DNA of 64,000 nt, taken from IMG/VR virus record IMGVR_UViG_3300027509_000001, positions 64,001 through 128,000 of that record; one strand, written 5' to 3'. This DNA comes from a virus. A program made the translations under genes and the position numbers. A model generated the notes under the pieces. That model searched no databases. It was given only the letters and a program-made list of their open reading frames with translations, and was not told where the DNA came from. This document shows positions 9,275 through 55,063 of this stretch, one piece after another; the first letter of the stretch is position 1; every line of letters begins with the position of its first letter.

Positions 9275-9766
9275 TTAAAAATAAGTTATCTTAGTCTTTT
9301 TATTGCCTTCTACGTGAACAAATGTATTGCCGGATCCAGCTCGGTTTCCTTTTTGGACTTCCAATGCAACTGTTTTTCCGTCAGCCGATGTTCCAAATAT
9401 TGCTAATCCAAATTGCAATTTATTGCTTGCTCTGAAACCATTGCCCAATTGAATTATTGGTAATACATATATGTCTTTCCATTTTACATTTAACCTGCCA
9501 GAAATTGTTGCTAGGTTTTTTGTAGTTCTAGTAGAAAGTATACTTTGAGCCGCTGAATATTTTAGTTTATATCCTTTAGTTGTTTTTGGTCTCGCCGTTG
9601 GTGGAAATGGTATTGTAATAGATGGTAGTGAAGCTTCTAGTTCATCCCTTGCATCGCCGCCATTTTTTAATATTTCGGGAGTATACTTATTTCTAAGTTT
9701 TTGAAGTGCAGAAGTGCTTTCGTATAATCTTTCCTGCTTTACTTCGTTCCAAATTTTCTTGTCCAT
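9275..9766 (-). CDS. hypothetical protein with putative capsid-targeting leader (MDKKIWNEV)
   Basis: A 163-residue protein whose first nine residues, MDKKIWNEV, match the leader shared by the small-protein cluster at 34329-37973 (MNKKIWNEA/V). By analogy with T4 internal proteins, the predicted protease cut is after Glu8. The rest is basic and Pro/Thr-rich, with a beta-rich C-terminal half (LGNGFRASNKLQFGLAIFG, ADGKTVALEVQKGNRAGSG). The AAAAAAGGAATTTAAA sequence before ATG 9766 gives a Shine-Dalgarno-like AAGGA. It is the only such leader seen among the non-structural genes. It may be an internal head protein injected with DNA (inference). Confidence 0.65.
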   Translation of the reverse strand: MDKKIWNEVKQERLYESTSALQKLRNKYTPEILKNGGDARDELEASLPSITIPFPPTARPKTTKGYKLKYSAAQSILSTRTTKNLATISGRLNVKWKDIYVLPIIQLGNGFRASNKLQFGLAIFGTSADGKTVALEVQKGNRAGSGNTFVHVEGNKKTKITYF

Positions 9767-16384: not shown

Positions 16385-18021
16385 CCTTCTTCGTTAATTG
16401 CTTCTTCATCAATAACAATATCGTCAATACCATAATCCTTATTAATTTCGTATTTCATAATATATTTTTCATGTACAATGTCAAGTATCTGCGATTTAAG
16501 CTCTGGGTTTCTATCGACGATTGTTGCAAAGTCTTTAGATTGAAATTTAAGCTCTAATTGCCCTTCTGTGACTTCTCCTTCTTCGTCAATAATGTCTAGT
16601 GGTGAAGATAACTTGTAAGTATACCACGCTCCAGAAGATTTGACAATCTTGTAATCCTTTAGTATACTAAGCCACGATCCATAATTATCAATTCCACTTG
16701 AATAATAAATGTCATATTTAACTTTTTTCATTGGAGGGCCCAACCTATTCTTGACAACGCTGCATTCAGTTTTTACCCCTACGATATTATCAATGCCATT
16801 CGATTTGACTTTAATTTTGCCCATAGATTTCAATCTAACTCGTACTGATGAGTGAAATGGTAATCCCTTTCCGCCAGATGTCGTGTTATGATTTAATCTA
16901 CCATTAGCTAAATACGTATGTGCATCAGCTACCTCAATGTCAACTACTGGCATTTTCTTCTCGACCCGCTTGAAATCTGGATGGTTTTGTAATTCGATTT
17001 GCTTTCCATCTTCTATAATTATATGATTGGCAGTTCCTTTTAATTTACCATCAGTATAATAATAATCTACTGGAGTTTTAATAATAAAATTAATAATCGG
17101 TTTATATACAAGTTCGCCATTAACAGAAGTTTCTATTTCTATATTTTCCGAAGTCAAATCGGCTATAATATATGGTTCTCCTTCCATTGCTGTCAAGTCT
17201 CCAGACTTTATTTCTTTGTATACGGATATCAAATCTGGAAGTCTAGTACTCATTAAATTAAATAAAGACTCTGTCCAAATATGTCCGGCAGTATTTCTCA
17301 ATTTTACTTCAGTTGTATGTGGATCAACACAATATTTGTCTCCAAACATTACTCCCATTCTAACCCGCAATTGATTTGTAAATATTAAACAAATCTTTTG
17401 TCTGGCTATTTTGTTTGTAATTTTTCGCAATGCTTTAGAAATGATAATTGCTTTAGCTGTTGCATATCCATCTTTACCATGTTCCGAAGCCTGTTCAACT
17501 TTTGTTGTGGCGCCCATCACTGAATCAACTACTATTGTAACTAACCTGTCTTTGTCCTTTTTTCGAACTTTTTCAATTATAATATCTATTGTCGTAAAGG
17601 CGTCTTCAATTGCTTCCAATGGAACATATAATAGTCTTTTTATGTCTACTCCAATTGCCTCTAAATATGCTTTTGATACTGCTGCTTCTGTATCAATGTA
17701 TACGGCTACTCCGCCTTTTTTCTGGGTATTTTTTAGAGCATAAGCTGCTAATAATGATTTACCCGATGCTTCCAATCCTGTAATTTCAGTTATTCTACCT
17801 ACTGGCCACCCGCCGTTTGGTCGGTTAGCAATTGCTAAATCCAGTATGTCTAATCCTGTTGGTACAAAATCTGTAACGTTGCTAACGTCATCTTCTGATA
17901 AAAAATAAGCTGATTTAAATTCGGTTGCTTTAAATTCTTTATCTAACGAGCTGGCAATATCCGCTGCCAGCTCTAAGATGTTATCAGTCTTTGCTTTAGT
18001 TTTTCTTTTGACTTTACTCAC
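16381..18021 (-). CDS. uvsX: UvsX/RecA-family recombinase interrupted by a mini-intein
   Basis: UvsX forms filaments on ssDNA and performs strand exchange for recombination-dependent replication. Walker A is GLEASGKS (residues 82-89); YIDTEAA follows, then Walker B-like VTIVVDSVMG and the L2-loop region IFTNQLRVRMGVMFGDKY. An intein begins here and the extein resumes TTSGGKGLPFHSSVRVRL, which matches RecA loop 2. Without the intein the protein is 397 residues, nearly identical to T4 UvsX (391). The C terminus is acidic. It follows the gp32-like gene by 3 nt. Confidence 0.93.
   Translation of the reverse strand: MSKVKRKTKAKTDNILELAADIASSLDKEFKATEFKSAYFLSEDDVSNVTDFVPTGLDILDLAIANRPNGGWPVGRITEITGLEASGKSLLAAYALKNTQKKGGVAVYIDTEAAVSKAYLEAIGVDIKRLLYVPLEAIEDAFTTIDIIIEKVRKKDKDRLVTIVVDSVMGATTKVEQASEHGKDGYATAKAIIISKALRKITNKIARQKICLIFTNQLRVRMGVMFGDKYCVDPHTTEVKLRNTAGHIWTESLFNLMSTRLPDLISVYKEIKSGDLTAMEGEPYIIADLTSENIEIETSVNGELVYKPIINFIIKTPVDYYYTDGKLKGTANHIIIEDGKQIELQNHPDFKRVEKKMPVVDIEVADAHTYLANGRLNHNTTSGGKGLPFHSSVRVRLKSMGKIKVKSNGIDNIVGVKTECSVVKNRLGPPMKKVKYDIYYSSGIDNYGSWLSILKDYKIVKSSGAWYTYKLSSPLDIIDEEGEVTEGQLELKFQSKDFATIVDRNPELKSQILDIVHEKYIMKYEINKDYGIDDIVIDEEAINEEG
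16885..17331 (-). other. mini-intein in UvsX
   Basis: 149 codons from Cys231 (CVDPHTTEVKL) to His-Asn before Thr+1. The splicing blocks are recognisable: Cys1; GTANHIIIEDGKQIELQNH near the block B/F region; and VVDIEVADAHTYLANGRLNHN at the end (block F/G). There is no room for an endonuclease, and no LAGLIDADG, HNH or Vsr-like motif is seen. It interrupts the DNA-binding loop 2 of the recombinase. Confidence 0.9.
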
Positions 18022-35275: not shown

Positions 35276-35563
35276 CTATTTTTTTTCAAATCTATCAGCA
35301 TTTACGCTAAATGAATCTGTATTTTTGTTTCCACCTTTTGGATACACTCTTGCGTTTGACCCATAATAGTTTTGAAATATATATATTTCACTCTCAGAGT
35401 TTCTTGTTAGATATGGAAGACTAGATCCATAATGTTCTTTTCCAGTAGATCTCATTTTTTTAATTTCAGCCCGAGTTGCTTTATTGAATACTAATTCAGT
35501 ACCTGGCTCATAATCATATTTATGTTCATTAATACTTTCGTTTAAAATATCTATTAATTTCAT
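35276..35563 (-). CDS. small protein with capsid-targeting-like leader MKLIDILNES
   Basis: A 95-residue protein. The MKLIDILNES leader is followed by a basic, Tyr/Ser-rich beta-type domain (ELVFNKATRAEIKKMRSTGK, SEIYIFQNYYGSNARVYPKG). It lies 3 nt after gp13. Basic character fits packaging with DNA. Function unknown. Confidence 0.68.
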   Translation of the reverse strand: MKLIDILNESINEHKYDYEPGTELVFNKATRAEIKKMRSTGKEHYGSSLPYLTRNSESEIYIFQNYYGSNARVYPKGGNKNTDSFSVNADRFEKK

Positions 35564-35566: not shown

Positions 35567-36721
35567 TTACTTTATATACATTTTCATTGGTACTCCAGCC
35601 AAATGCTGTTCTAAATATTCAGCTTCTGCTGCTTTCTTTTCGAGTTGGGCTTTTGAACCAAATGAGTCTAAAAATTCTTTTATTTCTTCAATTAACGATT
35701 CTTGTTCTGCGGCTGCCTGTGTTAACAGATCGTCCGAATTCAATGTTATTTCTGTATCGGGAATTGGTATTTGCGAATATTTGCCCCGTACAAAACCTAA
35801 CATCTCTTTACAAAGTGCTAAGGCATATCTTTGCATCCAATTTCTAGCGATTGAATTCGTTGCACTATATTTTAAATTATCATATGGTATATTGCTAATA
35901 TCAGAAATCAATGATTCGCTTTGGTCAATATTAATATCTTCTGATTCTAATGTGTAATCGAAGTATATTTTTGTTGCATGAGTTGGAACTGGAAAAATTC
36001 GTATTTTATCTCCAGTTAATTTAAAACCATAATGACTTTTTCTTATCTGATCGTTTAATTCAACCGCTTGAATTCGTTGCACATCACTATTTAATGGCGT
36101 CAATAAGTAATCAGAACCTACTCCATTCATTCCAAATTCATCTATTAGAGCTTGATTGGTGCCTGCGCCTGCTGCTTGGGTTATATATCTACTTGAGGCT
36201 GGACTTGGAGAATGATATACTTTTCTTATTGTAAATTCGTCAGATGTTGGATCACCAAGTTCTAATTCAGTATCTGTGTCATCAGTTAAATTATAAACTT
36301 GCTTACCAGCTGTGGTGTTTATAAATCCCTGATATTGATTTTGGGAACCGCCTGATGGAGCTGCTACTCCATATTGTTCTGCTACTTTAAAAACCCCAGA
36401 TAAACTTGCCTGTACATAATTACCTGTAAAGTTTAAAGCTCCAATTGGAGACCCTTGAACGTCCATTAGTAGATCTCTCGCTGCATACATATGAAGATAA
36501 TATCCATACTTCATAACAGACTCTTCATAAGCTGCATAAAAATTATCAGATATCAATTCTACATCAACTATTGGATATCCTAATCTTCTAGCTGCCCACT
36601 TGGAAAACTTATCTATGTCAGTTGCAAAATCACCGTCAGCGTCAAAATGCCCATATGGTGTTTCTCCAGCTGCGAATGTACTTGATCCTGTCCATGTATT
36701 TATTACTGGTTCATCTGCCAT
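35567..36721 (-). CDS. gp13: neck protein, gp13-like
   Basis: A 384-residue head-completion protein. The N-terminal half has FSKWAARRLGYPIVDVELIS, then DNFYAAYEESVMKYGYYLHM, comparable to the T4 gp13 start (YP...VEL...Y.AFEEAV). RIFPVPTHATKIYFDYTLES and NWMQRYALALCKEMLGFVRG follow further on. It is longer than T4 gp13 (309). Position next to the gp14- and gp15-like genes supports the call, although small leader-bearing genes separate them. Confidence 0.85.
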   Translation of the reverse strand: MADEPVINTWTGSSTFAAGETPYGHFDADGDFATDIDKFSKWAARRLGYPIVDVELISDNFYAAYEESVMKYGYYLHMYAARDLLMDVQGSPIGALNFTGNYVQASLSGVFKVAEQYGVAAPSGGSQNQYQGFINTTAGKQVYNLTDDTDTELELGDPTSDEFTIRKVYHSPSPASSRYITQAAGAGTNQALIDEFGMNGVGSDYLLTPLNSDVQRIQAVELNDQIRKSHYGFKLTGDKIRIFPVPTHATKIYFDYTLESEDINIDQSESLISDISNIPYDNLKYSATNSIARNWMQRYALALCKEMLGFVRGKYSQIPIPDTEITLNSDDLLTQAAAEQESLIEEIKEFLDSFGSKAQLEKKAAEAEYLEQHLAGVPMKMYIK

Positions 36722-37086
36722 TAGTAGTTTAACCTAATTTCAATCTTTTTAATTGCCACCTGTGTTTTTTCAATTGACATGTTTACTTTGTTTAGTTTTT
36801 CGCCGTAATTATTTGCATCGTTGTCTGTCCATTCTAAACCCTTTTGACCAGATTCTGAGTCCATATCTGAGAATATTTCTCTTTTTTCTATATATAAGTT
36901 TTTTAGTTGGCGTTGCATGTTCCACAAGTTGTTTTCTAAAGACTCCCTCTGTTTACCATACACTCTTTTCTTAAGGTTGGAATTCGATTGAGATTTTAAT
37001 TTATCATGGACCATTTGTCTGGCGCGAACCCTTATAAGGACAGGGTCATTTGCATGTAAAGCTTCGTTCCAAATTTGTCTGTTCAT
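36721..37086 (-). CDS. small coiled-coil protein with leader MNRQIWNEA
   Basis: A 121-residue protein. The MNRQIWNEA leader is a variant of MNKKIWNEA. The rest is highly charged and helical (LENNLWNMQRQLKNLYIEKR and a second helix near the end), predicting a coiled-coil hairpin. The stop overlaps the gp13 ATG by 1 nt. Function unknown. Confidence 0.68.
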   Translation of the reverse strand: MNRQIWNEALHANDPVLIRVRARQMVHDKLKSQSNSNLKKRVYGKQRESLENNLWNMQRQLKNLYIEKREIFSDMDSESGQKGLEWTDNDANNYGEKLNKVNMSIEKTQVAIKKIEIRLNY

Positions 37087-37399: not shown

Positions 37400-37645
37400 T
37401 TAAGTCCTTTTTCCATGATCCCACAATAAAGTAGAAATTATATCTAATAATTTTTTATCTGAAGGAGATGATTTAACATTCATGATTCCAGATCCGCCTA
37501 CTGTGAAACTGGCTATTTGTTTTGTTCCCTCATAAAACCCACCTTCGTTTGTGTTAACGTCTACTTTCATTACATACTTTCCTAATTTAGTATTCTGAAC
37601 GTTTTCGCTATCTTTTAAGGCTTGATTCCATATCTTACTATTCAT
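37400..37645 (-). CDS. small protein with leader MNSKIWNQA
   Basis: From ATG 37645 (with AAAAGGAAAAATAAA upstream) the product begins MNSKIWNQA, a leader variant in which the Glu of the presumed cleavage site is Gln, so it may not be cut. The 81-residue protein has a Gly-rich beta-type middle (NEGGFYEGTKQIASFTVGGS). FYEGT also occurs as FYKGT in the neighbouring 37659-37973 product, suggesting related mature domains. Confidence 0.65.
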   Translation of the reverse strand: MNSKIWNQALKDSENVQNTKLGKYVMKVDVNTNEGGFYEGTKQIASFTVGGSGIMNVKSSPSDKKLLDIISTLLWDHGKRT

Positions 37646-37658
37646 TTTATTTTTCCTT

Positions 37659-37973
37659 TTATAATTTAAATGCAATATAGGAATCGTCTCCGTCTCCGTT
37701 TAATTCATCCCAGAAATATTCTGCTGCTTCTTCTGGGGTGTCGTAATCTTCAATTGAACCATCTTTAGTAACCTTTCGGATAACCATTTGTTTTAATTGC
37801 TTACCAGTTCCTTTATAAAATTCTTCTTGGCCCTGATATTTGCTAATAAATAGCATATACTTAGTTCCGTCTTTAAGGTCTTTCCATTGGTAATTTTTAT
37901 CATTCAATGATTGCATTGATTCTAATATTACATTTGATTCGTTTAGAACTTCATTCCAAATTTTCTTATTCAT
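37659..37973 (-). CDS. small acidic protein with leader MNKKIWNEV
   Basis: A 104-residue protein. The MNKKIWNEV leader is followed by LNESNVILESMQSLNDKNYQ, then WKDLKDGTKYMLFISKYQGQ and a very acidic end (AAEYFWDELNGDGDDSYIAF). The acidic, compact character is reminiscent of DNA-mimic or inhibitor proteins, but this is only an impression. Good Shine-Dalgarno AAAGGAAA. Confidence 0.68.
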   Translation of the reverse strand: MNKKIWNEVLNESNVILESMQSLNDKNYQWKDLKDGTKYMLFISKYQGQEEFYKGTGKQLKQMVIRKVTKDGSIEDYDTPEEAAEYFWDELNGDGDDSYIAFKL

Positions 37974-40315: not shown

Positions 40316-41944
40316 TTATACTGTATCCAAACCGTCAATTTGAATAGTACCATAAAATTCAGGTCTTAATATCTTCTTAGCATATCTTGTCATTACGCCT
40401 TTACGTGGTGTAAAGTTGTCTGGATCAAGTACTAGAGGAGTCGTAATCAATGGAATATATGGAGCATATACTGCACCTGTTTCCAAATACTCAGAACCTC
40501 TGTATCCCATAAGAATTAAATTCTCTGTCATGTAAGGATTTTTATAAACAGTAAATCTGTTATTTAAAGCCCCTACCTTTCTAACACCCATTGCAAATTG
40601 TGACTTGTCACCATCTGTACTAGCTGCATAACCAGGAATTGATTCAATGATTGTAGCTACTTCTGGGCTAGTTACCATAAAGTTTGCACCACCTCTCATT
40701 GTCAATTTGTTAATTTGATTCGATACACTTTGCAATTTAGTACCTAACGTTTGGAACCATGTTCCTTGGTTATAAGCACTTGCATTTGCAGAAGTTTGTG
40801 AGAATTGTTTTGTCCCTGCATCATATTCAAAACCAATTTTTGCAGACCATCTGTTTGTAGTTTGCGCATTAGTAATTAACATGTCCAATAATTCAAAATC
40901 AATTTCCTGAGAAATATATTCACCTAACATTGCAGTTAATTCTGCTTCTGCATCAATTGAATGATATGCATTAATGTCTTGGCTAAATTCTGGAGTCCAG
41001 ATTGCTTTTAACTTTCTTGTCTTAGCAACAATAGTCTCTTGTCTCATTTGTAGATCTAAAGTAGGAATATCTAACGGATCTTCTCCAGTCTTTCCTTCTT
41101 CAAAATCACCTCTAGTAATATCTGTTGGTTGCTTGTGATAAGCTACGGTTGGAGTAGCTGCTGCCATGTTAGTAGCATTTGTTCCACTTTCTCCTACAAT
41201 AATAAATGTAATCTCAGTTTGGTCAGATGATACTCTAGTATACTGGCTCAATTGAGTTTTAATTAATGGATCTGTGATTGTAAACGCTCTTACACCTTCT
41301 AGGTCTGGAGTAGTTAAGTCTGCTACTGGAACAACTACTTTAAGTACTCTATCTGCGGTAATATCTGCGTCTAATAACGCTAATACTTCACTGTTGTATT
41401 GTAAATCAAATTCTTTAGTTGCTTGAACTGAAGTCGCTGAATCTACACTTGCTACAACATCTACATCGTTTACTGAATATCCAAATCTACCAACACCATA
41501 TAATCCACCAGTACCAACTGCATCTCCACGTCTTGCGTCTGTAACACCAAATACACTATCTTCTTGAGAGTCTCTAGCTGAGCCTGTTTTATAACCTGCT
41601 TGTCCAGTTGCGTATTTATGTTCTAGCCAGAATACTAAACCGTTAGGTAAGTTCATTGGTTGAGTAGAAACAAATTCTTTAGAAGATATACTTGAAAAGA
41701 TTCTTCTAATTAATGGTAATGCAATTCCTGCCCACTCTTCTGCGCCTTTTTCAGTTGAAGTTGAGTTTGCTTCATTTAAAATTTGACCTGCTTGATTTTC
41801 TAACAAGCGAGCCAATTGATTTGCTTCTGATTCATTTAAACCAGTTAACAATTTAGTTGGTGCCCATTTTTCTACCAACCTTTTCATTTCCGCTGCTCTA
41901 TCTGCTCTTTTATTTGCAGTCGGGAATAATGATTTAACGTTCAT
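40316..41944 (-). CDS. gp23: major capsid protein, gp23-like
   Basis: A 542-residue T4-type capsid protein. The N-terminal prodomain (about 58 residues) ends in AGQILNE-ANSTS, matching the expected prohead protease cut (T4 gp23 is cut after residue 65). The mature part has GIALPLIRRIFSSISSKEFV, HKYATGQAG, and RKLKAIWTPEFSQDINAYHS, followed by ELTAMLGEYISQEIDFELLD, then GVMTRYAKKILRPEFYGTIQ near the end. AAGGAAAATAAAC precedes ATG 41944, and a strong terminator follows. Confidence 0.95.
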   Translation of the reverse strand: MNVKSLFPTANKRADRAAEMKRLVEKWAPTKLLTGLNESEANQLARLLENQAGQILNEANSTSTEKGAEEWAGIALPLIRRIFSSISSKEFVSTQPMNLPNGLVFWLEHKYATGQAGYKTGSARDSQEDSVFGVTDARRGDAVGTGGLYGVGRFGYSVNDVDVVASVDSATSVQATKEFDLQYNSEVLALLDADITADRVLKVVVPVADLTTPDLEGVRAFTITDPLIKTQLSQYTRVSSDQTEITFIIVGESGTNATNMAAATPTVAYHKQPTDITRGDFEEGKTGEDPLDIPTLDLQMRQETIVAKTRKLKAIWTPEFSQDINAYHSIDAEAELTAMLGEYISQEIDFELLDMLITNAQTTNRWSAKIGFEYDAGTKQFSQTSANASAYNQGTWFQTLGTKLQSVSNQINKLTMRGGANFMVTSPEVATIIESIPGYAASTDGDKSQFAMGVRKVGALNNRFTVYKNPYMTENLILMGYRGSEYLETGAVYAPYIPLITTPLVLDPDNFTPRKGVMTRYAKKILRPEFYGTIQIDGLDTV

Positions 41945-43342: not shown

Positions 43343-44305
43343 TTATTTTTTTGTTAAAATGGCATTAATCGTTGTCATTATAGTTTGATAGTATCTAACT
43401 AGATTTCGAAAGTGGTAATCGATTTGTTTGCCATCATTATAATCTTTTATTGCGCTCGATAATTCATCTACTACGTTAATATATGTTGGAAGTAATTCTT
43501 TAGGACCTTTGCTCCAAGAAAAAAGTTCTGGGTTATCTAGCATATATTTAAAAGCCTTATCAGTTTGTGCCTTAAGGTTATGAACTTTTACAACATATTT
43601 TGCCAACTTAGGATCCATTTTACCTTTCCTCTTTTCTTTCTTCATTTGAGCAATTTTTTTGGCATAATTCAAATGCTTATCTCTTAAAATATCCCAATCA
43701 CTTCTTACAGAGTTTGCAAAATCTTTATTGTGCTCTTTAGAGACATTAACATCAGAATTTGATTTTATAACATACGCCGTGTATTTATTGGACATTAAAT
43801 CAGAATTTTTAATAACTGAAATCGATGATATTCCTGTTTTATTTGATTTTGCATTGCCTCTTCCAGTACTTACGTATACGTTATTCTGCTTTCCTATGCT
43901 TTTTCCTTTAGATGTACCATAACTATGCCTCGAACCAGACATATGGACATGCTTTCCACCTCTCATTATTCCCGCTATTTCTTTGTATCGTTCATCAACA
44001 AAAATGACCACATCTAATTTATTTTGAGTCATATGACTCTTGGCCTTGTCGCCTGGAATTATTAATATCATATCATCAGTTACATCCGATGATTTAATGC
44101 CCAATTTCGAGAGTCCATTGAACATATTAAATGCAGATCTTCGGTTCCAACCAGAATTTGCATCATTAGATGTATATACGTTGTATTTAGATATTTTTTG
44201 CATTTTAGATGATTTAAATGCTTCCTTTATTAAATACCTATTAATTGCTTCTTTTACAATTCTTTTAACTTGTGGTTTTGTATACGTTTTCATTTGCATT
44301 TGCAT
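43343..44305 (-). CDS. hypothetical head-operon protein
   Basis: A 320-residue basic protein between protease and bS21 genes. ATG 44305 overlaps the protease stop (TAATG), arguing for this start; the frame is open to 44338, and ATGs at 44299 and 44293 are alternatives. The N terminus (YTKPQVKRIVKEAINRYLIK, then EAF) is amphipathic helix. The middle contains DVVIFVDERYKEIAGIMRGG, then a Gly/Ser/Lys-rich segment with GSRHSYGTSKGKSIGKQ. The end is helical. It may be a prohead core or packaged protein; no family is recognised. Confidence 0.6.
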   Translation of the reverse strand: MQMQMKTYTKPQVKRIVKEAINRYLIKEAFKSSKMQKISKYNVYTSNDANSGWNRRSAFNMFNGLSKLGIKSSDVTDDMILIIPGDKAKSHMTQNKLDVVIFVDERYKEIAGIMRGGKHVHMSGSRHSYGTSKGKSIGKQNNVYVSTGRGNAKSNKTGISSISVIKNSDLMSNKYTAYVIKSNSDVNVSKEHNKDFANSVRSDWDILRDKHLNYAKKIAQMKKEKRKGKMDPKLAKYVVKVHNLKAQTDKAFKYMLDNPELFSWSKGPKELLPTYINVVDELSSAIKDYNDGKQIDYHFRNLVRYYQTIMTTINAILTKK

Positions 44306-44949
44306 TATTTTAAACAACAATTTCCTGCCAATTCGCAAATAATATCTCTAATTATTATTTCAGCATATTGTTCTTGTGTTAATTCATTTTTATTGACCGA
44401 TTCGCTTATAGGAGCTAAGAATGCTTGATGTGTAGATGGATTAGAAACAAAATCCCAACAAACCAAATTATAATCTTCTGATACTGCGACTGTTTCTTCG
44501 TCTACTTGTGTTACCGATCCCATTCCCCTTGAACTTATACCAACTGTCAAACCAGCTAATATTAATTCCTTTAATATATTTCCAGAAGGCGTATTCAATA
44601 TTTCGACAGTTCCAACAACATCATTTCCTTCCCACCATATTTTTCTTATTACGTGCGATACGTTTCTGAAATTTACTACACTTGAATCTGGATGATCTAA
44701 TTCTCCATATGCTCTATTTTCTGCTATAAAAACCTTTTCATAGTTTTTAACTTCTCTTTCTAAAATATTTCTTGGATAAATTCGTTTATTTTGATTCTTA
44801 GCTTCAGCTCTTTGTAATACTCCAGTTACTAATAAACTACCACCATTCTTTTTGATAGATTCTTCTAGCCTAGTTCTGACTTGTGATGGATTTAAACCCT
44901 TTATTTCATTAATAAGAAATGGCTGAGATGTTAATATTGGTTGTTTCAT
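44305..44949 (-). CDS. gp21: prohead protease, gp21-like
   Basis: This serine protease of the herpesvirus-assemblin fold matures the prohead by cutting scaffold, capsid and internal proteins after short I/L-x-Glu motifs. The 214-residue protein has KRIYPRNILEREV, the catalytic His in GELDHPDS (His86), then GISSRGMGSV with Ser140, and a DYNLVCWDFVSNPSTHQAFL motif. It starts 1 nt after the 144-residue gene. Its target sites are visible in this window: ILNE-A in the capsid protein and the NE-A/S/V leaders of the small proteins. Confidence 0.92.
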   Translation of the reverse strand: MKQPILTSQPFLINEIKGLNPSQVRTRLEESIKKNGGSLLVTGVLQRAEAKNQNKRIYPRNILEREVKNYEKVFIAENRAYGELDHPDSSVVNFRNVSHVIRKIWWEGNDVVGTVEILNTPSGNILKELILAGLTVGISSRGMGSVTQVDEETVAVSEDYNLVCWDFVSNPSTHQAFLAPISESVNKNELTQEQYAEIIIRDIICELAGNCCLK

Positions 44950-46244: not shown

Positions 46245-49200
46245 TTATATATCAGTGTCGTCGGATAAAACCAAAGATTCTTCATTTAACATACTTATTC
46301 CATGCAAATCTTTTAATGGAGTTTCAGTAATAAATGTAGATTTAATTGCATTTGATTTTGCAGATACGTATGTTTGTGGTATCGATTTAATGGCTTCCTT
46401 TTTCATTTTCAATCCACGTTGTAGTGTTTTGGAACCATCTGGATCTTCTCCGTTTATATCGTCTTGCTTTCTTCCAAATTTAGTTTTTTTAGTTGGACGT
46501 CCTGGATTATCTTCTCTTTTATCTCCTTTGTATAAATTCTTAATATTACTCGGATCGTGGGGTTTTGCCAATTTATCTACATCTCCTTTTTGAGCGTCCT
46601 TTTTTGCTTCTTCGTTTTCTTTATTCTCTTGACCCTGAGTCCAGGCTGCATATGCCATGTCGTGTGGTGTTCCGAAGGATCTACCTGTTTTTTCTGGATC
46701 ATTCCCTTCGGCTTCAATTTGCGCTTCTCTAAATCCGCGTTTAAGATCTTCTATTACTGCACTTTCTTCTTTTTCAATTTCTTCTGGATCCAGACTAAAT
46801 AAGTTAGTATAGACATATTCTCTAGAGAATAATTTACTTTCTAACATTTGGGTTACTAATGACATTTTCTCATTAAGCATATCTATTTTCTGTCTTTCAT
46901 AGATTATGCTAGGCGGGGTTAATGATATAGTAAAACTTAATAAATCTTCGTCTTTAAATCCTTGAGTATATAAATGTACATATGCCATCTTATATAACTC
47001 TCCAACAATCACTTTTTGAATTCTTTCTACTGTTCTAGCGAACCTAATATCTTCTGCTGCGAGAACTGAATTATGTATTATAACTCCAGCTGACGTTCCG
47101 AAGTTATGATATTTGTCAACAGTTATATCGCATGTATCAATTGAATTCGACTGCCATTCAACTCTAACCACTTTATGATTTAAATATCTTGGCTCGTATT
47201 TTCTGTAATTTTGCATAAATGCTTTATTCTCTAATGCCAATGGCATGCAATTGAATATGAATTCAATTTTATCTACATTTAAATAATTCCATAATTTATT
47301 TAATACATTTCGAGTAATTCCTAATGATTTCTCTAAATGAGAAAATGAATTACAAGATTCGGCTGTTTCAATTAATTGTTTATAGCTTATATTTTTATAC
47401 TTTGATTTACTTGGAGTTTGGTACGACTCCGGATGATTTTTCTGATATTCAATTCTACATGACGATGTGCAAAATCGTGTTATATCTTTACGATAATGAT
47501 GAATTTGGTAGTTAATTGAACAATTATCACATGTAGAAAATAGATCCGGTTTTTTATTGGCTGGTCCGTTGTCTTTTACCCATTGACCAAGTTTAGGACC
47601 AGATATCTTTCCACCGATTAATCCACCCATTCTACAATGTATCTTCTTTAATGGAGATTTATTATATGCGATCATGTTTGGATTTTTCTGCATATCAGCA
47701 GCATGAGTGGCATGAAATTGTCTATGCTCCCAAAAAGACATTGTACCATCTAAATTTTCTGGATTGTTGTTTCTGCCATTGTAATCAATATGGTGGAGTA
47801 CATTTGTTCCCTCCTTTATATTAAATTGATCTCCTACAATTCGATGTACTAATTTATATTTTCCATCGCATGGTTGATAAACTGTCGTGTAATGGTCTTT
47901 ATAACCGCCATTACTTAGATATAAGGGCATCAATGATAGATTTGGAGTTAAGTTTTGCGCTTCTACCCAAAGTCCATCACGGGTAAGGAATTTGTGGTCT
48001 GGTGTACATTCTATAAACTTATCATTATCTAACCAAACCTTTACAGTTTGAGTATTCATTCTAGTGAAGCCAGCCCATGTTATTTTGCCCGCTTTAATTG
48101 TATTATCTGATTCGTCAAGTGAGTAAGTGTAGTTAATTATTCCATTTTTATAATCTTCAATTAACTCTCGTACCGTTTTAGTTTCTCCACTAATTAACGG
48201 TATTTCAGTATCCGGGCTTATACATTTCCCTTCCACATCGGCATCGTATCCGAGGTATGCTTTTGGTATTTTAAGATACGCCATCATTTTATTTCGAAGA
48301 TACTCAATATCGGTTATTGCACCATCATTACTTAATCCATCTAATGTATTTATTTCTGTACTCGATTTTCCACCTCTAACCGGCAAATAAAAATCTTCCA
48401 TTGCATTCATTAGATTATATCTTAAGTTATACGATCCATCGTCATTAACATGTGGTATTTTTTTATTAGCATTAATTATTTCTTCGATGTGAGAGTCTAC
48501 TTCTTCTGGTGGAATAAGCCCTACGTCAATCTTAAATACCCTTCGTTCTGGCGCTCTCATTATTCTATGTAATAACATTGCATCTTCCATTAATAATAAC
48601 TGCTTAAATGTTTTCCTAGAACCTTCTACCATTGATTTACCATAAGGCAAATAATTAGTATCACTTAATAATCTAAAATGTGAAACTTCGTATCTTTCAA
48701 AAATATTTTTATTTAACTGAGTATATCCTTCGCCCTCATACACAAATACAGTTCGCAGATCTTCTCCGTGATTCTCTCTTCTTCTCATTAAAGATGGATG
48801 GACTGGTAACGCATCCACTAATCCAACTTTTGGTTGAACATCATGCAATAAAAACATGTCTCCGTTTTTACATAAAGCTCTTGCCCAATGCCATAAATTA
48901 AATTCAATATTAAGTACGTCGTAAAATAAGTTATTGAGTATTTTCTTTATATTTTCATTCTTAGTAGTAATACTCAATAATTCCCCATGAACATTCTTAG
49001 TAGTGGATTCATCTGCATATACATCTAATGCACCAGATAGAATTGCATCAGAGTCCATTAATTCATAATCAGAATACAATTGCATTCTAACTGCCTCTAT
49101 ATGCTCTTGAGTAGAATTTATAGAAGACCATCCAGATTGATTGTATGCTTTTCTTAAGCGTCGATATCTACTATATCGGGTTTGCTTATTACCGACAGCC

Positions 49201-49301
49201 TGTGTTTTGTCTAGGTCAATAAGTTTTAATCGATTTCCAGATGTCTTTGTTAATACAAGTTTTCTAGAAAACAAATTTATTAAAGTGTCGCGTAATGCCA
49301 T
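46245..49301 (-). CDS. gp20: portal vertex protein, gp20-like, interrupted by an intein
   Basis: Dodecameric portal through which DNA enters the head and leaves into the tail. The extein begins with NLFSRKLVLTKTSG and has SGWSSINSTQEHIEAVRMQL, YDLMDSDAI-like YELMDSDAILSGALDVYADE, LLLMEDAMLLHRIMRAPERR, VFKIDVGLIPPEEVDSHIEE and NKMMAYLKIPKAYLGYDADV; after the intein it resumes SVLAAEDIRFARTVERIQKV. Removing the 385-residue intein gives 633 residues (T4 gp20 is 524), with an extended charged C terminus. It follows the terminase gene by 26 nt. Confidence 0.93.
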   Translation of the reverse strand: MALRDTLINLFSRKLVLTKTSGNRLKLIDLDKTQAVGNKQTRYSRYRRLRKAYNQSGWSSINSTQEHIEAVRMQLYSDYELMDSDAILSGALDVYADESTTKNVHGELLSITTKNENIKKILNNLFYDVLNIEFNLWHWARALCKNGDMFLLHDVQPKVGLVDALPVHPSLMRRRENHGEDLRTVFVYEGEGYTQLNKNIFERYEVSHFRLLSDTNYLPYGKSMVEGSRKTFKQLLLMEDAMLLHRIMRAPERRVFKIDVGLIPPEEVDSHIEEIINANKKIPHVNDDGSYNLRYNLMNAMEDFYLPVRGGKSSTEINTLDGLSNDGAITDIEYLRNKMMAYLKIPKAYLGYDADVEGKCISPDTEIPLISGETKTVRELIEDYKNGIINYTYSLDESDNTIKAGKITWAGFTRMNTQTVKVWLDNDKFIECTPDHKFLTRDGLWVEAQNLTPNLSLMPLYLSNGGYKDHYTTVYQPCDGKYKLVHRIVGDQFNIKEGTNVLHHIDYNGRNNNPENLDGTMSFWEHRQFHATHAADMQKNPNMIAYNKSPLKKIHCRMGGLIGGKISGPKLGQWVKDNGPANKKPDLFSTCDNCSINYQIHHYRKDITRFCTSSCRIEYQKNHPESYQTPSKSKYKNISYKQLIETAESCNSFSHLEKSLGITRNVLNKLWNYLNVDKIEFIFNCMPLALENKAFMQNYRKYEPRYLNHKVVRVEWQSNSIDTCDITVDKYHNFGTSAGVIIHNSVLAAEDIRFARTVERIQKVIVGELYKMAYVHLYTQGFKDEDLLSFTISLTPPSIIYERQKIDMLNEKMSLVTQMLESKLFSREYVYTNLFSLDPEEIEKEESAVIEDLKRGFREAQIEAEGNDPEKTGRSFGTPHDMAYAAWTQGQENKENEEAKKDAQKGDVDKLAKPHDPSNIKNLYKGDKREDNPGRPTKKTKFGRKQDDINGEDPDGSKTLQRGLKMKKEAIKSIPQTYVSAKSNAIKSTFITETPLKDLHGISMLNEESLVLSDDTDI
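47070..48224 (-). other. intein in the portal protein with HNH homing endonuclease
   Basis: 385 codons from Cys360 (CISPDTEIPLISGETKTV) to His-Asn before Ser+1. Splicing blocks: Cys1, ECTPDHKFLTRDG (block B), and VDKYHNFGTSAGVIIHN (block F/G). The endonuclease is of the HNH type: VLHHIDYNGRNNNPENLDGT, then EHRQFHATHA. A Cys-rich zinc-finger-like segment follows (FSTCDNCSINYQ with FCTSSCR). It appears complete and potentially mobile. Confidence 0.92.
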
Positions 49302-49327: not shown

Positions 49328-50917
49328 TTATAATAGCCAACGGAAAGAAACGGTTTCTTTGCCTACTTTTCTTGAATATGGGTCGTTTTTAATTGAATTA
49401 GGCTTATGAACGCCTTTAAATGTTTTCCGTAACGTCTTTCGATGTACATCTATTCCTATTTGCCTTAAACGCAATGCCGTATCTTTAATAAACAAAAATA
49501 TACCCAATGCCATAACTAAATCATCATTATATCCTGGTGAAGCTTGAGCTTTTCCATTTCTCCATTTAAATACAAATAACTCTCCAATAGTTCTAGAAGA
49601 TTTAATTATTACTGCTCTGTCTCGCATATGTATTTCTATCTTGGATATCATAATTGGACGGGTTCTGCTATTTGTACTAAATCCAGGGATCATGTCTTCT
49701 TTAGATTTTAGATCATACATTTTAGCTAAATGAATATTGGAATCTAAGAAAGGATCTAATCTATAACTATAATATAAATTATCATAACCAGAGTCAAGTA
49801 CCGTTTGAACTGTGCTCCAGCCTATATTTAAATTTTCTATTACTAATAATGCATTATTCCATTCAGTGGCGGCTGCTACTAACATTTTACCAAATACGTC
49901 TGTTGGTACCTTTCCTTTATATTCTGCAACTTGCTCTAGTTTTTCAACATCAAATACATGAAATGTAGAATAATCAGTTCCGTCTCCCCTTGATACATCT
50001 GCCACAATTACGTAACTTATTGAATAATCTGGATAATTCCACATCCAATAATTATTATCTATACCCCGCATTTCCTTTGGAGGTTCTACCATATTAGTTT
50101 TATAATATTTAAGGATATCTCCTTCTACGACAGTATGTCCAGATGAAATGAAGTCACAATCGCATTCCTGGGCTGCTTGTTTTTCTCCCAATAACACCGT
50201 CTGCTGGTTTCTCCACGTTTGATCTCTGTCAGGATGTAGGTCCCATTTAAGGTTTATTGGATTGAATACTTCTAGACCTTCTGGAGCTTCTTGAGATTCT
50301 GCTTGTTCCCATAACTTATGAAACAAATTACCTACACCATTTGGAGTAGACAATACTATTGCGGATCCACCTGTTGAAAGTGTCATTTGCGCACCTGTCC
50401 AAATATGATCTATATTATCGACGAAAGCTGCTTCATCTATTATTAACAATGAAAGTGCCTCAGAACGTCCAGCTGTTTTTGATGCAGATACTGCTTTTAT
50501 TGAAGACCCGTTTGCAAATGAAATTGACATCTCATTATTTTTAACCAATTCAGTTGTTTCTTTTAACCAACTTGGTAAATTGGCAAACATTACTTTAACC
50601 TTTTGTACCAAGTTAATTGCCACTGATTGGTTGGTTGCAATTACAAGTATTTTAAAATTTTCAGCCGAAAGCATTTTATATAAAGAATATCCAGCAGTTA
50701 AGGTTGATATACCCATTTGTCTAGATTTTAAGATTATATTAAATCGATTATCTAGAAATTCAGACAAGGTACGTTCTTGAAATGGATATAAATTAAAATT
50801 AATCTTACCTTTCATTGGATGTTCAATTTTACAATACTTCTTCATAAAATGAACTGGGTCAGTCATTGATCTTGACTTTTCTGCCCTTATAATATCCTTA
50901 ATGCTTTTTTGTGCCAC
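49328..50917 (-). CDS. gp17: terminase large subunit, gp17-like
   Basis: ATP-driven packaging motor and headful nuclease. The ATPase domain has a variant Walker A, LKSRQMGIST (residues 63-72), Walker B LLIIDEAAF around residue 162, and coupling motif LSTPNG around residue 190. The nuclease domain has VIVADVSRGDGTDYSTF around residue 305, LLVIENLNIGW around residue 357, and the last acidic cluster YNDDLVMALGIF around residue 469. 529 residues (T4: 610). The start is GTG 50917. No small terminase (gp16) was recognised with confidence, although the gene at 51553-52161 is in a suitable place. Confidence 0.94.
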   Translation of the reverse strand: MAQKSIKDIIRAEKSRSMTDPVHFMKKYCKIEHPMKGKINFNLYPFQERTLSEFLDNRFNIILKSRQMGISTLTAGYSLYKMLSAENFKILVIATNQSVAINLVQKVKVMFANLPSWLKETTELVKNNEMSISFANGSSIKAVSASKTAGRSEALSLLIIDEAAFVDNIDHIWTGAQMTLSTGGSAIVLSTPNGVGNLFHKLWEQAESQEAPEGLEVFNPINLKWDLHPDRDQTWRNQQTVLLGEKQAAQECDCDFISSGHTVVEGDILKYYKTNMVEPPKEMRGIDNNYWMWNYPDYSISYVIVADVSRGDGTDYSTFHVFDVEKLEQVAEYKGKVPTDVFGKMLVAAATEWNNALLVIENLNIGWSTVQTVLDSGYDNLYYSYRLDPFLDSNIHLAKMYDLKSKEDMIPGFSTNSRTRPIMISKIEIHMRDRAVIIKSSRTIGELFVFKWRNGKAQASPGYNDDLVMALGIFLFIKDTALRLRQIGIDVHRKTLRKTFKGVHKPNSIKNDPYSRKVGKETVSFRWLL

Positions 50918-51273: not shown

Positions 51274-51556
51274 ATTGTTGTGCCCTTCTTTTTATTATCT
51301 GTATTGCTTCATCTAAAGGTAACGAGTCGATGCCGATCGAATTCATGCTATCCTTTAAAATCTGAATATTTTCTTTTTGTTGTTCAATTTTATCTAATGT
51401 TATAATTAGATTATTTTCATTATTTTTTATGACAGGTGACAATTCTTCTGCTTTGTCTATATCAGCTTGAATTCTTTTTGCATTCATCTTTTGCCATATA
51501 GTGTAAACTGAAAGGGCAATTAATAAACCAAATAAAAACATTATAATATATTTCAT
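51221..51556 (-). CDS. membrane-anchored coiled-coil protein, possible i-spanin-like
   Basis: A 111-residue protein: one N-terminal transmembrane helix (MKYIIMFLFGLLIALSVYTI) followed by a charged coiled coil (AEELSPVIKNNENNLIITLD, KIEQQKENIQILKDSMNS). This is the topology of inner-membrane spanins. It overlaps the upstream gene by 4 bp and the next by 53 bp. Confidence 0.5.
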   Translation of the reverse strand: MKYIIMFLFGLLIALSVYTIWQKMNAKRIQADIDKAEELSPVIKNNENNLIITLDKIEQQKENIQILKDSMNSIGIDSLPLDEAIQIIKRRAQQYEKDSNINIIISDPIIY

Positions 51557-52161
51557 AAATTTTCTAATTCCTCGAATACGTATTCTTTGTATTCTTTGTA
51601 TTCTTTGATTATCTTTTTAGCTAATATTTCATTGCCAGCCCAATCTTCGGTTACTCCAGCTTTTCCACTATACGTCGTTTTAGTAGAAATATCCTTTTCT
51701 AATTCCGCTATATACTCGTCCGATTCTTTAAAAAATGAAATTGCGTTGTCTGTTAAAGATGTTTTTTGAAAATCATCCCAAGTTCCATTCAATTTCATTA
51801 GATCTTCTTGTTCAATAGAACATTGATGACACATGCCCCTATAGGCTCTAAATTTCCTATCAATCCACGTTTTCTTTTTTAACTTACATGTGGGTTTACA
51901 ATTTGGATATGAATTAAGAAATTCTCTGGCCTTGTCTATTGCCGCATAGTTTGGAGAGCGTTTGACCCGATATCCCTGCCTTTGTTCCCAGATTGCAGTC
52001 ACCTTTCCGTCTGCATCTTTCTGTTCCCATTTTTCTCCTACTTCTCTAACTTTGCTTTTTTCGGCTGCATCTTCTACACCTTGGTAACTAATAGATGTTT
52101 TATTTTGCGATACGTGCTTTCCAGACTTTATTTTTTGTAATCTTTCTAAATTAAATCCCAT
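51553..52161 (-). CDS. hypothetical zinc-binding-like protein next to terminase
   Basis: A 202-residue charged protein. Residues about 93-120 contain two cysteine pairs, CKPTC and CHQC, separated by a basic segment (WIDRKFRAYRGM), which could bind zinc. A helical C-terminal third ends KEYKEYVFEELENL. Position near the large terminase would suit a packaging role, but no small-terminase signature is recognised. No known family. Confidence 0.55.
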   Translation of the reverse strand: MGFNLERLQKIKSGKHVSQNKTSISYQGVEDAAEKSKVREVGEKWEQKDADGKVTAIWEQRQGYRVKRSPNYAAIDKAREFLNSYPNCKPTCKLKKKTWIDRKFRAYRGMCHQCSIEQEDLMKLNGTWDDFQKTSLTDNAISFFKESDEYIAELEKDISTKTTYSGKAGVTEDWAGNEILAKKIIKEYKEYKEYVFEELENL

Positions 52162-52203: not shown

Positions 52204-55023
52204 TTAATTTCTTGAGTATCTGTCATATCCCAAGATGAAATTAACAGGGGCAAATAATCCAGTATATTTATATAAATTATTATTCCATTCAAATACTACT
52301 CCTTCAGTTGGTTGCATATTTTGTGGTCCGCCTATTGTATTTATTCTGGCTATTTCCCTTTGGATTTTAGGATCAGAAGTGTCTTCGCTTAAGCGATTTA
52401 TATTATCCATAACATTTTGTTTAGAACCTTCTCCAAACGCCCCTAGGAACCCTGTACAATTTGATAAATATTCATTGGCTAATTCTAAAAATATTGGTTC
52501 AATTGAATCTTTTAATTTATGCATTATAGCACTAATCATCGTTTTATCCATTTCCGATATTAATGGGGTATATTCTCCAAAATTCTTATTAGTTAATCTC
52601 GTTGATTTATCTTCGTATACCCATCTATTAACCAATGCCTGTTTAAGCATGTTATTAAGAGGTTTGAGCGATTCTTCTACTACTGCCTTCATATAGTATT
52701 CATAATATTCTCCAAGTGTATTAGAGTCGCTTAAATTAGCGTCTTTCATTTTAGAATTTACTAAAGATTCATAATATGATAATCTTTCAGTTAAATTATC
52801 TGGGGTAATATATTCAATAACATTTGGAGTAATAATTTCATAATGCATTCCAAGTGAATTATATTTCGGTATTTGAATTGGAGTATTTGATATCATATTC
52901 CATGATGCATCATACTCTACTAAACCTAAAGCCACTATATATGGTTTGGTATATTCAATAACGTTTTGCGTTGAAGGATTTAATATTTCGACATTTAAAT
53001 ATTTACTGCCATTCTCAAATAGATTACTATCTTTAAAAGCATGTTCAAGTTGAAGTGCTGCGCTTTTAAATGAGTTTTGCAACCAGTCCCTATCTGAAAA
53101 TTTGTCTGCTAACTCTTCTATTGTCATGGGGGTTTTCAAAGTACTTTTATTTCTGGCTGCATATAATTTATTCTCTTTAATCGTTACCATTAAATTCTGT
53201 CCATCTAGTTTTTCGTACGTCTTTGCTTCTAAGTTACCAGACAAAGAACTAGAAAACAATTCTTTAATTTTACCAAAAGTTAATGATAAATTATTATATG
53301 GATGATTTAATCTTCCAAATGCTCCTCCCATGAGTAATAGATTTTGACTGTTATTAATATTTTCTTTAAATTCAACGTTTGGGTATGTATTGCACAAAGT
53401 TAACAATTTTTTAATCAACAAACTAATTTTTAACACTTTTATTTTATCTGTAGGGCTTTTGTCTTGTCTAGCTACTACTCGGTGATGACCATCCAAAATA
53501 TAATAATCTTTGGAGCATATAATAGGTTTATTAAACACATCGTTGCCAGAATCTGAGATTGATACTACCTTATCAACATTAATTTCTTTTTGTGTTAATT
53601 TTAATTGACTTATTTCTATTTCTTCTATTTTATATTCTATTTTTTCAGTGTCTAACCACTCTTTAAATTTATCTAAATCTTCAATTTGAGGCATTTTAAT
53701 TCTTTTAATACCAAGAGATTGTTTGACATTAATAGTATCTTCTACATAAATCTTAGGCGTTGCTGAACTAAAATTCTTTTTTCGCATTATAGTTTTCGCA
53801 ATTAAATCATATTCCAATGTATTTGGGTCCCATTCAATTACAAATGGTATATTTAATGCACTAGATTTATCAACTAAAACTGCTTCGTCGCCGGGGTCTA
53901 ACCTGTCTAATTGACCTTTTTTGTTTTTTAAAGCCTTTTTAAATAAATTTCGAATTTCCTCTATATCTATTTCTGGAGTATTTCGGTTATCGTTTGACCT
54001 ATCTAAAAAATGTGTCTTCATAAGGTTAATGTCAAGTCCTATGCTCCCATATATTTGATCTAAATATTTTTCAACATTATAAAGTTGACTTCTTGATATC
54101 TTTTCAACAAGTTGATATCCACTGTTATTGGATAATTTAGTAACATGATCTGACCATTTTAGTTCCGAATCAATTTTTGATACAAATTTGTCATAATCAG
54201 TACCCGATCCTGTATTATTATCTCCAGTTGGAAAGTAAGATGTTGTTGTTGGTGGGCCATGAGGATAATCAGTTTCTGGGGCATGCGCTTCTATAGAATC
54301 TATATCCCCTATTAACCAATTCATAACTTTCCAATTTGCGACATTTTTTGATTTATTGTCAATCGATATGTAATACGATTTTAAATCATTGTAAAATGCC
54401 CTTGGTCCGTCATCTGGCGCTGTATAATTTCCTTCTACTATATTCCTAGCTATTTTTTCTTGTATAGCAAATTTTTTTTTAATTATATTATGTGCTAATT
54501 CTTCGTACCAACCAAATATTTCTAAAAATTTATCTTTAGTAATTCCAGGCAAATTTTCCCTAATATAAGTTCCTGAATAATTTTCTACTGATTCTATTTG
54601 TATATGAGGAGCCACAATAACGTATCCATGTTTGTCGTAAGATTCCAATTTAATATCTTCTGAATATGGCTGGAAATAAGACAATGAACCATCTGCCTTT
54701 GTCCATTTGAATCGAGAAGAGTCTTTTTCTCCTATCATAAAAATAGCAGATATATTTGGATCATATTTTTCTAAAAATGTTGGACGATATGGAATCCTCT
54801 CTTCTTTTATATAATTTGAATTAATTCCGTATCCATTCATGAATACTGCTTTTTCTTCGAATGCAAATGGAGAATTTGGAAATTCAATTTTATTTGACGT
54901 AACTAAGTACGAATTTTCTTTTCCAAATTTATTCTGCATCCATTTAAATGCCTCATTATGATGTTTACCAAACAATTGGAAACGTCCTGGATATATAGCG
55001 ACTATTTTATTATTTTTATTCAT
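52204..55023 (-). CDS. three-part protein: nucleotidyltransferase-like domain, ParB-like motif, polynucleotide-ligase-like domain
   Basis: A 939-residue protein from ATG 55023 (frame open to 55032). Part one (residues about 5-190) resembles cytidylyl/NMN adenylyltransferases: IVAIYPGRFQLFGKHHNEAF (GRFxxxxxxH) and YSGTYIREN (the S/T-x-x-I-R motif). Part two has YYILDGHHRVVARQ near residue 510, the ParB/sulfiredoxin-type motif. Part three (about 580-940) carries ligase nucleotidyltransferase motifs: YEKLDGQNLMVTI (KxDG) near residue 605, YAARNKSTL, YLNVEILNPST, and TEGVVFEWNNNLYKYTG near the C terminus. It sits in the virion region between fibre and terminase. Substrate unknown; RNA/DNA repair or NAD-related chemistry are possible. 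Confidence 0.7.
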   Translation of the reverse strand: MNKNNKIVAIYPGRFQLFGKHHNEAFKWMQNKFGKENSYLVTSNKIEFPNSPFAFEEKAVFMNGYGINSNYIKEERIPYRPTFLEKYDPNISAIFMIGEKDSSRFKWTKADGSLSYFQPYSEDIKLESYDKHGYVIVAPHIQIESVENYSGTYIRENLPGITKDKFLEIFGWYEELAHNIIKKKFAIQEKIARNIVEGNYTAPDDGPRAFYNDLKSYYISIDNKSKNVANWKVMNWLIGDIDSIEAHAPETDYPHGPPTTTSYFPTGDNNTGSGTDYDKFVSKIDSELKWSDHVTKLSNNSGYQLVEKISRSQLYNVEKYLDQIYGSIGLDINLMKTHFLDRSNDNRNTPEIDIEEIRNLFKKALKNKKGQLDRLDPGDEAVLVDKSSALNIPFVIEWDPNTLEYDLIAKTIMRKKNFSSATPKIYVEDTINVKQSLGIKRIKMPQIEDLDKFKEWLDTEKIEYKIEEIEISQLKLTQKEINVDKVVSISDSGNDVFNKPIICSKDYYILDGHHRVVARQDKSPTDKIKVLKISLLIKKLLTLCNTYPNVEFKENINNSQNLLLMGGAFGRLNHPYNNLSLTFGKIKELFSSSLSGNLEAKTYEKLDGQNLMVTIKENKLYAARNKSTLKTPMTIEELADKFSDRDWLQNSFKSAALQLEHAFKDSNLFENGSKYLNVEILNPSTQNVIEYTKPYIVALGLVEYDASWNMISNTPIQIPKYNSLGMHYEIITPNVIEYITPDNLTERLSYYESLVNSKMKDANLSDSNTLGEYYEYYMKAVVEESLKPLNNMLKQALVNRWVYEDKSTRLTNKNFGEYTPLISEMDKTMISAIMHKLKDSIEPIFLELANEYLSNCTGFLGAFGEGSKQNVMDNINRLSEDTSDPKIQREIARINTIGGPQNMQPTEGVVFEWNNNLYKYTGLFAPVNFILGYDRYSRN

Positions 55024-55063
55024 TAGGTACAATTTAATTTTTTTTATTTAAAAATCCAAACTC

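Follow-up and report, generated by a model that had tools for sequence, protein, structure and literature searches.

P0001 is a chain of five segments

The stretch of DNA analyzed here, hereafter the window, comprises 64,000 nucleotides (bases 64001-128000) of the 188,518-base virus record IMGVR_UViG_3300027509_000001. We focused on one of its genes, P0001, which is read from the minus strand and encodes 939 residues when started at an ATG codon (Table 1). The open reading frame extends uninterrupted over 52204..55032, where a TTG start would give a product three residues longer (942 residues), and the plus strand across the P0001 coordinates contains many stops. An earlier note on the window had seen in P0001 an adenylyltransferase-like, a ParB-like, and a ligase-like domain. 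The motifs quoted there are all present in this one frame, namely GRFQLFGKHH (residues 13-22), SGTYIR (150-155), LDGHHRVVAR, KLDG with Lys605, EIL with Glu679, EGVVF with Glu907, and YKYTG with Lys919, and the three domains do share one chain. The profile and sequence matches of the NTase, ParB, and ligase regions, given below, show that these motifs did not arise by chance. However, two segments between them had been missed: an undescribed segment, here termed the DDGP domain, and a candidate endoribonuclease domain with a predicted RegB/RelE (BECR) fold, which rules out a composition of three domains only. Judged from its sequence, P0001 is composed of five segments: a NadM-like nucleotidyltransferase (NTase), which is followed by a linker, and the DDGP, RegB-like, ParB-like, and ligase domains.

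With Pfam, a cytidylyltransferase-like domain (CTP_transf_like) was the sole notable match of P0001, and with PHROGs we obtained ParB-type families at residues 422-556 and two unnamed families at residues 308-425. The full-length sequence alone found no relative among viral contigs, for which domain alignments were required, and its comparison with the sequences of solved structures gave nothing meaningful. PADLOC returned nothing credible for P0001 (RT_UG33, expect value (E) 0.043).

Table 1. Features of P0001 and of neighboring genes in the window; domain borders in P0001 were set from alignments, and a slash in a site marks the predicted point of cleavage
Feature	Residues	Position in the window	Strand	Basis
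P0001, whole gene	939 in total	52204..55023	-	ATG at 55023, stop at 52204-52206
NadM-like HIGH-superfamily nucleotidyltransferase	1-165	54529..55023	-	Pfam CTP_transf_like; NMNAT profile match
IVE/G, T4 gp21-type site (L/I-x-E) after the NTase	195-198	54430..54441	-	Linker
DDGP domain, undescribed	202-305	54109..54420	-	Alignment of relatives
RegB/RelE (BECR)-fold domain, candidate endoribonuclease	308-428	53740..54102	-	AlphaFold2 model; phrog_23027, E 5.5e-17
ParB/Srx-like domain with LDGHHR	436-556	53356..53718	-	phrog_2859, E 2.6e-24; phrog_3041
KxDG nucleotidyltransferase, RNA-ligase-like	558-939	52207..53352	-	AlphaFold2 model, conserved motifs, fold matches
Gene between P0001 and terminase		51553..52161	-	Syntenic; found in 55 of 91 loci
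Terminase large subunit		49328..50917	-	Pfam Terminase_6N; present in 75 of 91 loci
Prohead protease, T4 gp21 homologue		44305..44949	-	Peptidase_S77, E 9.7e-34
Major capsid protein gp23		40316..41944	-	Gp23, E 2.7e-70, domain from residue 69

The C-terminal domain is most similar to RNA ligases

The ligase domain contains the superfamily motifs I (the lysine of KxDG), III (Glu), IV (EG), and V (Lys). Lys605, Asp607, Gly608, Arg624, Glu679, Glu907, Gly908, and Lys919 are invariant in 50-75 relatives, and the loss of catalytic residues, which we looked for in these homologues, was not seen. Because the open reading frames were picked by their KxDG and ARNK motifs, Lys605 and Arg624 are invariant partly by selection, and Glu679, Glu907, and Lys919 constitute the selection-independent observations. 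The AlphaFold2 (AF2) model of the domain (pLDDT 89.1, pTM 0.87) found T4 RNA ligase 1 as its best match in Foldseek (E 8.5e-4). In the comparison by VIA-align, the first 22 rows were all RNA ligases (Z 7.8-6.9), ahead of any DNA ligase, with the Naegleria enzyme (7.8), T4 Rnl1 (7.7), Trl1 (7.5), and REL1 (7.3) at the top; the best of these values falls below the caution level of Z 8. Fold matches with Z just under 8 are not proof alone, but since they agree with the motifs, an RNA-ligase-type fold is the best reading of the ligase domain.

Like T4 RNA ligase 1, Rnl2, Naegleria Rnl5, and fungal Trl1, the P0001 ligase domain has motifs I, III, IV, and V in order within a predicted nucleotidyltransferase fold. 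Unlike these enzymes, it bears a helical insertion of roughly 150 residues (model residues 188-340) before motif IV, and the chain has little after motif V. Matches to eS6 (E 0.04) fall on this insertion and were discounted. At the sequence level, Pfam RNA_ligase (PF09414) was the commonest weak match in the relatives (17 of 50, best E 0.0047), never reaching the family cut-off and without any match in P0001 itself. Weak matches to DNA_ligase_aden occurred singly, at E 0.04 among the ligase relatives and at 0.007 in the set sampled by the DDGP domain, and the comparison with the sequences of solved ligases gave no significant match.

The fold list also bears on whether the protein might rather act as a DNA-end or genome-protection enzyme, in which the ligase would seal incoming or packaged phage DNA at nicks or breaks, the ParB-like domain would bind DNA, and the NTase would serve the adenylation cofactor. 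Some DNA ligases do follow lower in the list (Z 6.8-4.7), ParB-like domains often act on DNA, and the family gene adjoins those of terminase and portal. However, RNA ligases occupy all of the top 22 rows, the recurrent weak Pfam match is RNA_ligase and not the ATP-dependent DNA ligase family, and the modules exchanged within the family, such as the CCA-adding enzyme and the RegB-like RNase fold described below, are RNA enzymes. We consider a role in DNA protection unlikely.

The N-terminal domain resembles NMN adenylyltransferases

CTP_transf_like exceeded the Pfam cut-off in P0001 when the phage's own genome was scanned. The best match of the NTase profile was the archaeal nicotinamide mononucleotide (NMN) adenylyltransferase MJ0541 (1f9a, E 1.1e-6); 1ej2 (E 8.6e-4), further solved NMN adenylyltransferases (NMNATs), and NadM-Nudix-type proteins were matched as well. 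The signature GRFQ(P)..GH ... SGTxIR is shared with archaeal NadM and NadM-Nudix proteins, and in one relative (L025) a NUDIX domain (1e-14) follows the NTase. Unlike archaeal NadM, P0001 reads GRFQLFGKHH and is fused to an RNA-ligase-like domain. The SxTxxR motif is present as SGTYIR. At the HxGH position, P0001 and many relatives have GKHH, the first His being replaced by Gly, and HKGH, HRGH, or HPGH is found in L091, L095, L096, L100, and L107. Flavobacterium phage immuto gp088, annotated as an NMNAT, was rejected as an orthologue of P0001 for its different layout without ligase motifs.

The fusion of an NTase with a ligase could indicate cofactor recycling, in which the ligase would take AMP from nicotinamide adenine dinucleotide (NAD+) with release of NMN, and the NadM-like domain would turn NMN and ATP into NAD+ again. 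The closeness of the NTase profile to NMN adenylyltransferases, the NTase-first and ligase-last order as the commonest plan, and the single weak DNA_ligase_aden matches are consistent with such a cycle. Yet the fold neighbors of the ligase domain are ATP-using RNA ligases, the NMN-binding Ia domain of LigA was not identified, and stand-alone ligase versions exist with no NTase in the same chain (L005, L060), making recycling very unlikely in our view. Alternatively, the protein could primarily rebuild NAD+ depleted by defense NADases, with the ligase being secondary. Restoration of NAD+ by phages is known (PMC9503650), and most of the full-length relatives have a NadM-like head. This explanation is distinctly unlikely when considering that the NTase is the degenerate part of P0001 (GKHH), whereas the ligase residues are invariant, and that NadV was not found in the record.

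The central segments include a RegB-like and a ParB-like domain

The DDGP domain occurs in at least 207 related contigs, and its stretch in P0001 has no match in Pfam or PHROG. The AF2 model of the following domain (pLDDT 91.7) was closest to T4 RegB (Z 7.4 over 117 of 136 residues), with RelE/HigB next (Z 5.5-4) and ClpX as the nearest unrelated fold (Z 4.3). Foldseek gave no match below E 0.37, and the search at the sequence level gave no link to RegB. The invariant residues include a helix His and Lys-Thr-x-Met-Arg-Lys near the C-terminus, so that the domain has a conserved His and a C-terminal Thr like phage BECR RNases (PMC5512222). Unlike T4 RegB, the RegB-like domain of P0001 is embedded in a multidomain chain; elsewhere, it occurs stand-alone with T4-like targeting N-termini. 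In one relative (L323:2636-6367), a second RegB-like copy lies within the ligase domain, which may be a genuine insertion or may reflect misassembly. In the ParB-like domain, DGxHR is kept in 4 of 4 aligned sequences, and ParBc_2 gave weak matches in the fused relatives.

The family looks viral and is widespread and modular

An alignment-based search traced the ligase domain to at least 579 IMG/VR contigs, and relatives thus occur in hundreds of uncultured aquatic viruses. The family gene is mostly located upstream of those for terminase and portal. Among 50,697 GenBank phages, tblastn detected a ligase relative in three records, one of which is an isolate, Microcystis phage Mel-JY01 (E=9e-48), the others being two uncultured huge phages. 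The Mel-JY01 relative consists of NTase and ligase without ParB, one of the huge phages has ParB, NTase, and ligase in permuted order, and the other encodes a free-standing ligase. Among 84,980 species genomes, only six short contigs of aquatic metagenome-assembled genomes carry the ligase domain, which therefore looks viral. Our literature search, which was largely without subscription journals, found no description of the P0001 family.

In the commonest plan of complete relatives (600-1660 residues), the NTase comes first and the ligase last, with other modules between or before them. The earlier note knew of no described protein with this set of domains; the set is not unique, as ParB, RegB-like, and ligase domains recur together in L096, L100, and the N-terminally cut L092, the first two also having the NTase, with a domain order that varies. 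L091 and L095 contain NTase and ParB and no ligase motif within the available stretch. Modules recognized in other relatives include a tRNA nucleotidyltransferase (PolyA_pol/CCA) in L038, L091, and L095 (E 3e-31, 8e-29, and 2e-25), an HD domain in L095, a zeta/AAA_33 kinase in L047, and a polynucleotide-kinase-like (PNK-like) family, phrog_415, in L036. By eye only, L311 seemed to have a HAD phosphatase and L323 a polymerase-beta-like NTase. In the set sampled by the DDGP domain, the ligase is often exchanged for another KWDG protein, DUF6267 (PF19782, E 1e-100), a family of unknown function that fills the ligase slot in L271, L277, L283, and others and stands alone in L163. Given its KWDG motif and the same slot, DUF6267 is probably another covalent nucleotidyltransferase.

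The exchangeable modules (CCA-adding enzyme, kinase or PNK-like, NUDIX, HD, RegB-like, and ParB) point to RNA-end repair. Together with the RNA ligases at the top of the fold comparison, the CCA-adding, kinase, NUDIX, and HD modules of the relatives support the earlier suggestion of an action on nucleic-acid ends. A structural or scaffolding head protein, in which the enzyme folds would have no relevant catalysis, could account for the fixed position in the head-gene cassette, but it is hardly compatible with catalytic residues strictly conserved across divergent relatives and with enzyme modules that are freely exchanged. We regard it as extremely improbable.

Putative sites of the prohead protease flank the domains of the relatives

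By its gp23-type capsid protein, gp21-type prohead protease, and T4-type terminase, the phage with P0001 is T4-like. Its capsid protein has Microcystis phage Mel-JY01 (55%) and Flavobacterium phage immuto (51%) as nearest named relatives and Rhodothermus phage RM378 (34%) as a more distant one. The placement of P0001 among virion genes, as the earlier note had it, is borne out by synteny: in the family loci counted in Table 1, the portal gene is present in 58 of the 91, and both terminase and portal nearly always lie downstream of the family gene and share its strand.

T4 gp21 cuts after L/I-X-E (PMC9026906), and the gp23 capsid protein of this phage contains such a site, LNE/A, at residues 56-59. 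We compared the occurrence of [LI]xE[AGST] in the relatives with the expectation from shuffled sequences. The motif was found at the N-terminus in 10 of 21 (2.1 expected), in the linker before DDGP in 14 of 17 (3.0 expected), and before the ligase in 31 of 43 (5.5 expected). Held-out relatives had the linker site in 21 of 30 and the N-terminal site in 15 of 24, versus 4.8 and 2.9 expected, and all 17 DUF6267 junctions contained a site, with 1.5 expected. In the linker of P0001, Glu197 of IVE/G is invariant in 14 aligned relatives, and hydrophobic-x-E is found there in 30 of 30 held-out relatives.

By contrast, the domain bodies contained the motif 6 times versus 30.6 expected in the ligase, and not once in the NTase (5.5 expected), DDGP (2.2), and RegB-like (5.7) domains, whereas the controls were close to expectation for the terminase large subunit (TerL, 40 versus 42.6) and had 41 versus 50.6 in the portal. 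Among 24 permuted versions of the motif, the genuine one was the least frequent across the four domains taken together (6 occurrences, the next having 31); it ranked 15 in TerL and 6 in the portal. The depletion in the bodies was weaker for plain L/I-x-E, with ratios of 0.46, 0.37, 0.00, and 0.55, and 1.21 for TerL. As the sequences are homologous, these counts do not represent independent tests.

Relatives whose N-terminus is extended begin with a short amphipathic stretch ending in L/I-x-E, and 35 of them together contain 48 L/I-x-E in the ligase body versus 131 expected. Free-standing RegB-like versions in other phages often begin with MKTFKDFLKE, MKSYKEFIVE, and similar sequences, which we take to resemble the targeting peptides of T4 internal proteins. 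The stand-alone DUF6267 version in L163 begins with MKTFRQYLTE/A. In the NTase-ligase relative of Mel-JY01, IAE precedes GGLGGHMNHPF. The principle of such targeting peptides has been described for T4 internal proteins (PMC9026906). Motifs that are placed at N-termini and junctions and avoided within the bodies suggest that most relatives are packaged and processed polyproteins.

A putative counter-defense enzyme for RNA-end repair

Our favored reading, to which we give an even chance of being right, is that P0001 is a modular phage counter-defense enzyme centered on RNA-end repair. The ligase domain would self-adenylylate at Lys605 and then seal RNA ends, with host or phage tRNA broken by defense nucleases as the most plausible substrate. 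The NadM-like domain might use NMN and ATP to make or restore a dinucleotide of the NAD(+) type, with the RegB/RelE-fold and ParB-like domains as accessory modules for RNA cutting or nucleotide binding or hydrolysis. The family would be expressed as part of the cassette of head genes in T4-like phages. Most relatives, though not clearly P0001, may enter the prohead in the manner of T4 internal proteins, be split there into individual enzymes, and be injected together with the DNA.

The family joins a new ligase clade to known kinds of proteins, namely polyvalent or internal head proteins and RNA-repair enzymes. Like polyvalent proteins (PMC5512222), P0001 combines several effector domains, including ParB-like and BECR-like modules, in a single chain whose gene is close to virion genes. 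As a difference from polyvalent proteins, no MPTase autopeptidase was found, and cutting of the P0001 relatives would depend on a T4-type prohead protease. RNA ligases are mentioned in that study only as never associating with its 2H domains (PMC5512222). The relatives also resemble T4 internal head proteins and Alt (PMC9026906, PMC3012670) in their capsid-targeting-like N-terminus and diverse counter-defense cargo. T4 internal proteins have single functions, in contrast to the multi-enzyme chains of the relatives, and P0001 itself has no tag.

Several observations weigh against the favored reading. The Z values of 7.8 for the ligase and 7.4 for the RegB-like domain are of a size that unrelated folds can also reach, although their ordering is coherent. 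The NTase of P0001 may be impaired because HxGH lacks its first His and GRFQP its Pro. Phage NadM has been reported to be always accompanied by NadV (PMC9503650), and NadV (PF04095) was not found in the possibly incomplete 188.5-kb record. Elsewhere in its genome, the same phage encodes a PNKP (1e-45) as well as an RNA ligase and a "Swiss Army Knife"-type HAD protein of RNA repair; with a stand-alone PNKP and RNA ligase already at hand, the function of P0001 may be redundant or different. The bodies of DUF6267 do not avoid the protease motif (14 versus 11.8 expected). P0001 itself begins with MNKNNKIVAIYPGRF, having neither an N-terminal extension nor a targeting peptide that ends in L/I-x-E, its ligase junction reads LLLM/GG with Met in place of Glu, and its ligase body contains nine L/I-x-E versus 5.4 expected, thus showing no avoidance. 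IVE/G is the only remaining junction site. Without a targeting N-terminus, a ligase-junction site, and avoidance, packaging of P0001 is doubtful and the family evidence is not transferable to it. The hint in the earlier note that P0001 might be carried in the particle is therefore not upheld.

For the family as a whole, we tentatively propose, with slightly less than even confidence, that aquatic T4-like phages carry widespread head-packaged polyproteins, from which the prohead protease would free an RNA-healing and -sealing kit that enters with the DNA and undoes tRNA or NAD damage. The kit would comprise the NadM-like enzyme, kinase, CCA-adding enzyme, NUDIX, RegB-like RNase, ParB, and the new RNA ligase clade, and P0001 would be a member whose packaging signals were lost or never acquired. 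If the relatives are truly packaged and processed, they would broaden the principle of T4 internal proteins, which concerns single inhibitors, to entire repair pathways that accompany the genome, and phage survival of tRNA-cutting and NAD-depleting defenses in the first minute of infection would become directly testable. With the contigs and GenBank records counted above, the ligase clade represents a large, almost unstudied nucleic-acid-sealing group, which could provide useful reagents if active.

Further observations on the phage genome

The RNA-repair genes of the phage (HAD_SAK_2, RNA ligase, and PNKP) form a cluster at G000:C1:159151-159678 and 160061-165536, where the protein at 159151 appeared macro-domain-like by eye, without a match in Pfam. 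The phage also encodes a zeta-type kinase with a capsid-targeting-sequence-like (CTS-like) N-terminus. Capsid-targeting-like starts were noticed as MKLIDILNESINE (window 35279-35563), MKLNDILIEEILKE (the zeta-toxin/AAA_33 kinase, G000:C1:31029-31715), and MKLRDLLSESVINE (G000:C1:36456-36986). Furthermore, an N-terminal tag, M[ND]xxIWN, is common to four small proteins in the window (9275-9766, 36721-37086, 37400-37675, and 37659-37973), with MDKKIWNEV, MNRQIWNEA, MNSKIWNQA, and MNKKIWNEV as examples, and to two further proteins at G000:C1:152580-152894 and 155429-155773. This tag is possibly the phage's own targeting peptide.

Inspection by eye revealed an apparent intein-like insertion in each of the portal (46245-49301), RecA-like (16381-18021), and radical-SAM, QueE-like (6736-8592) genes. 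Inositol-phosphate-synthase-like, GTP cyclohydrolase I-like, and QueE-like genes, likewise recognized by eye at 801-9187 of the window, suggest 7-deazaguanine chemistry.

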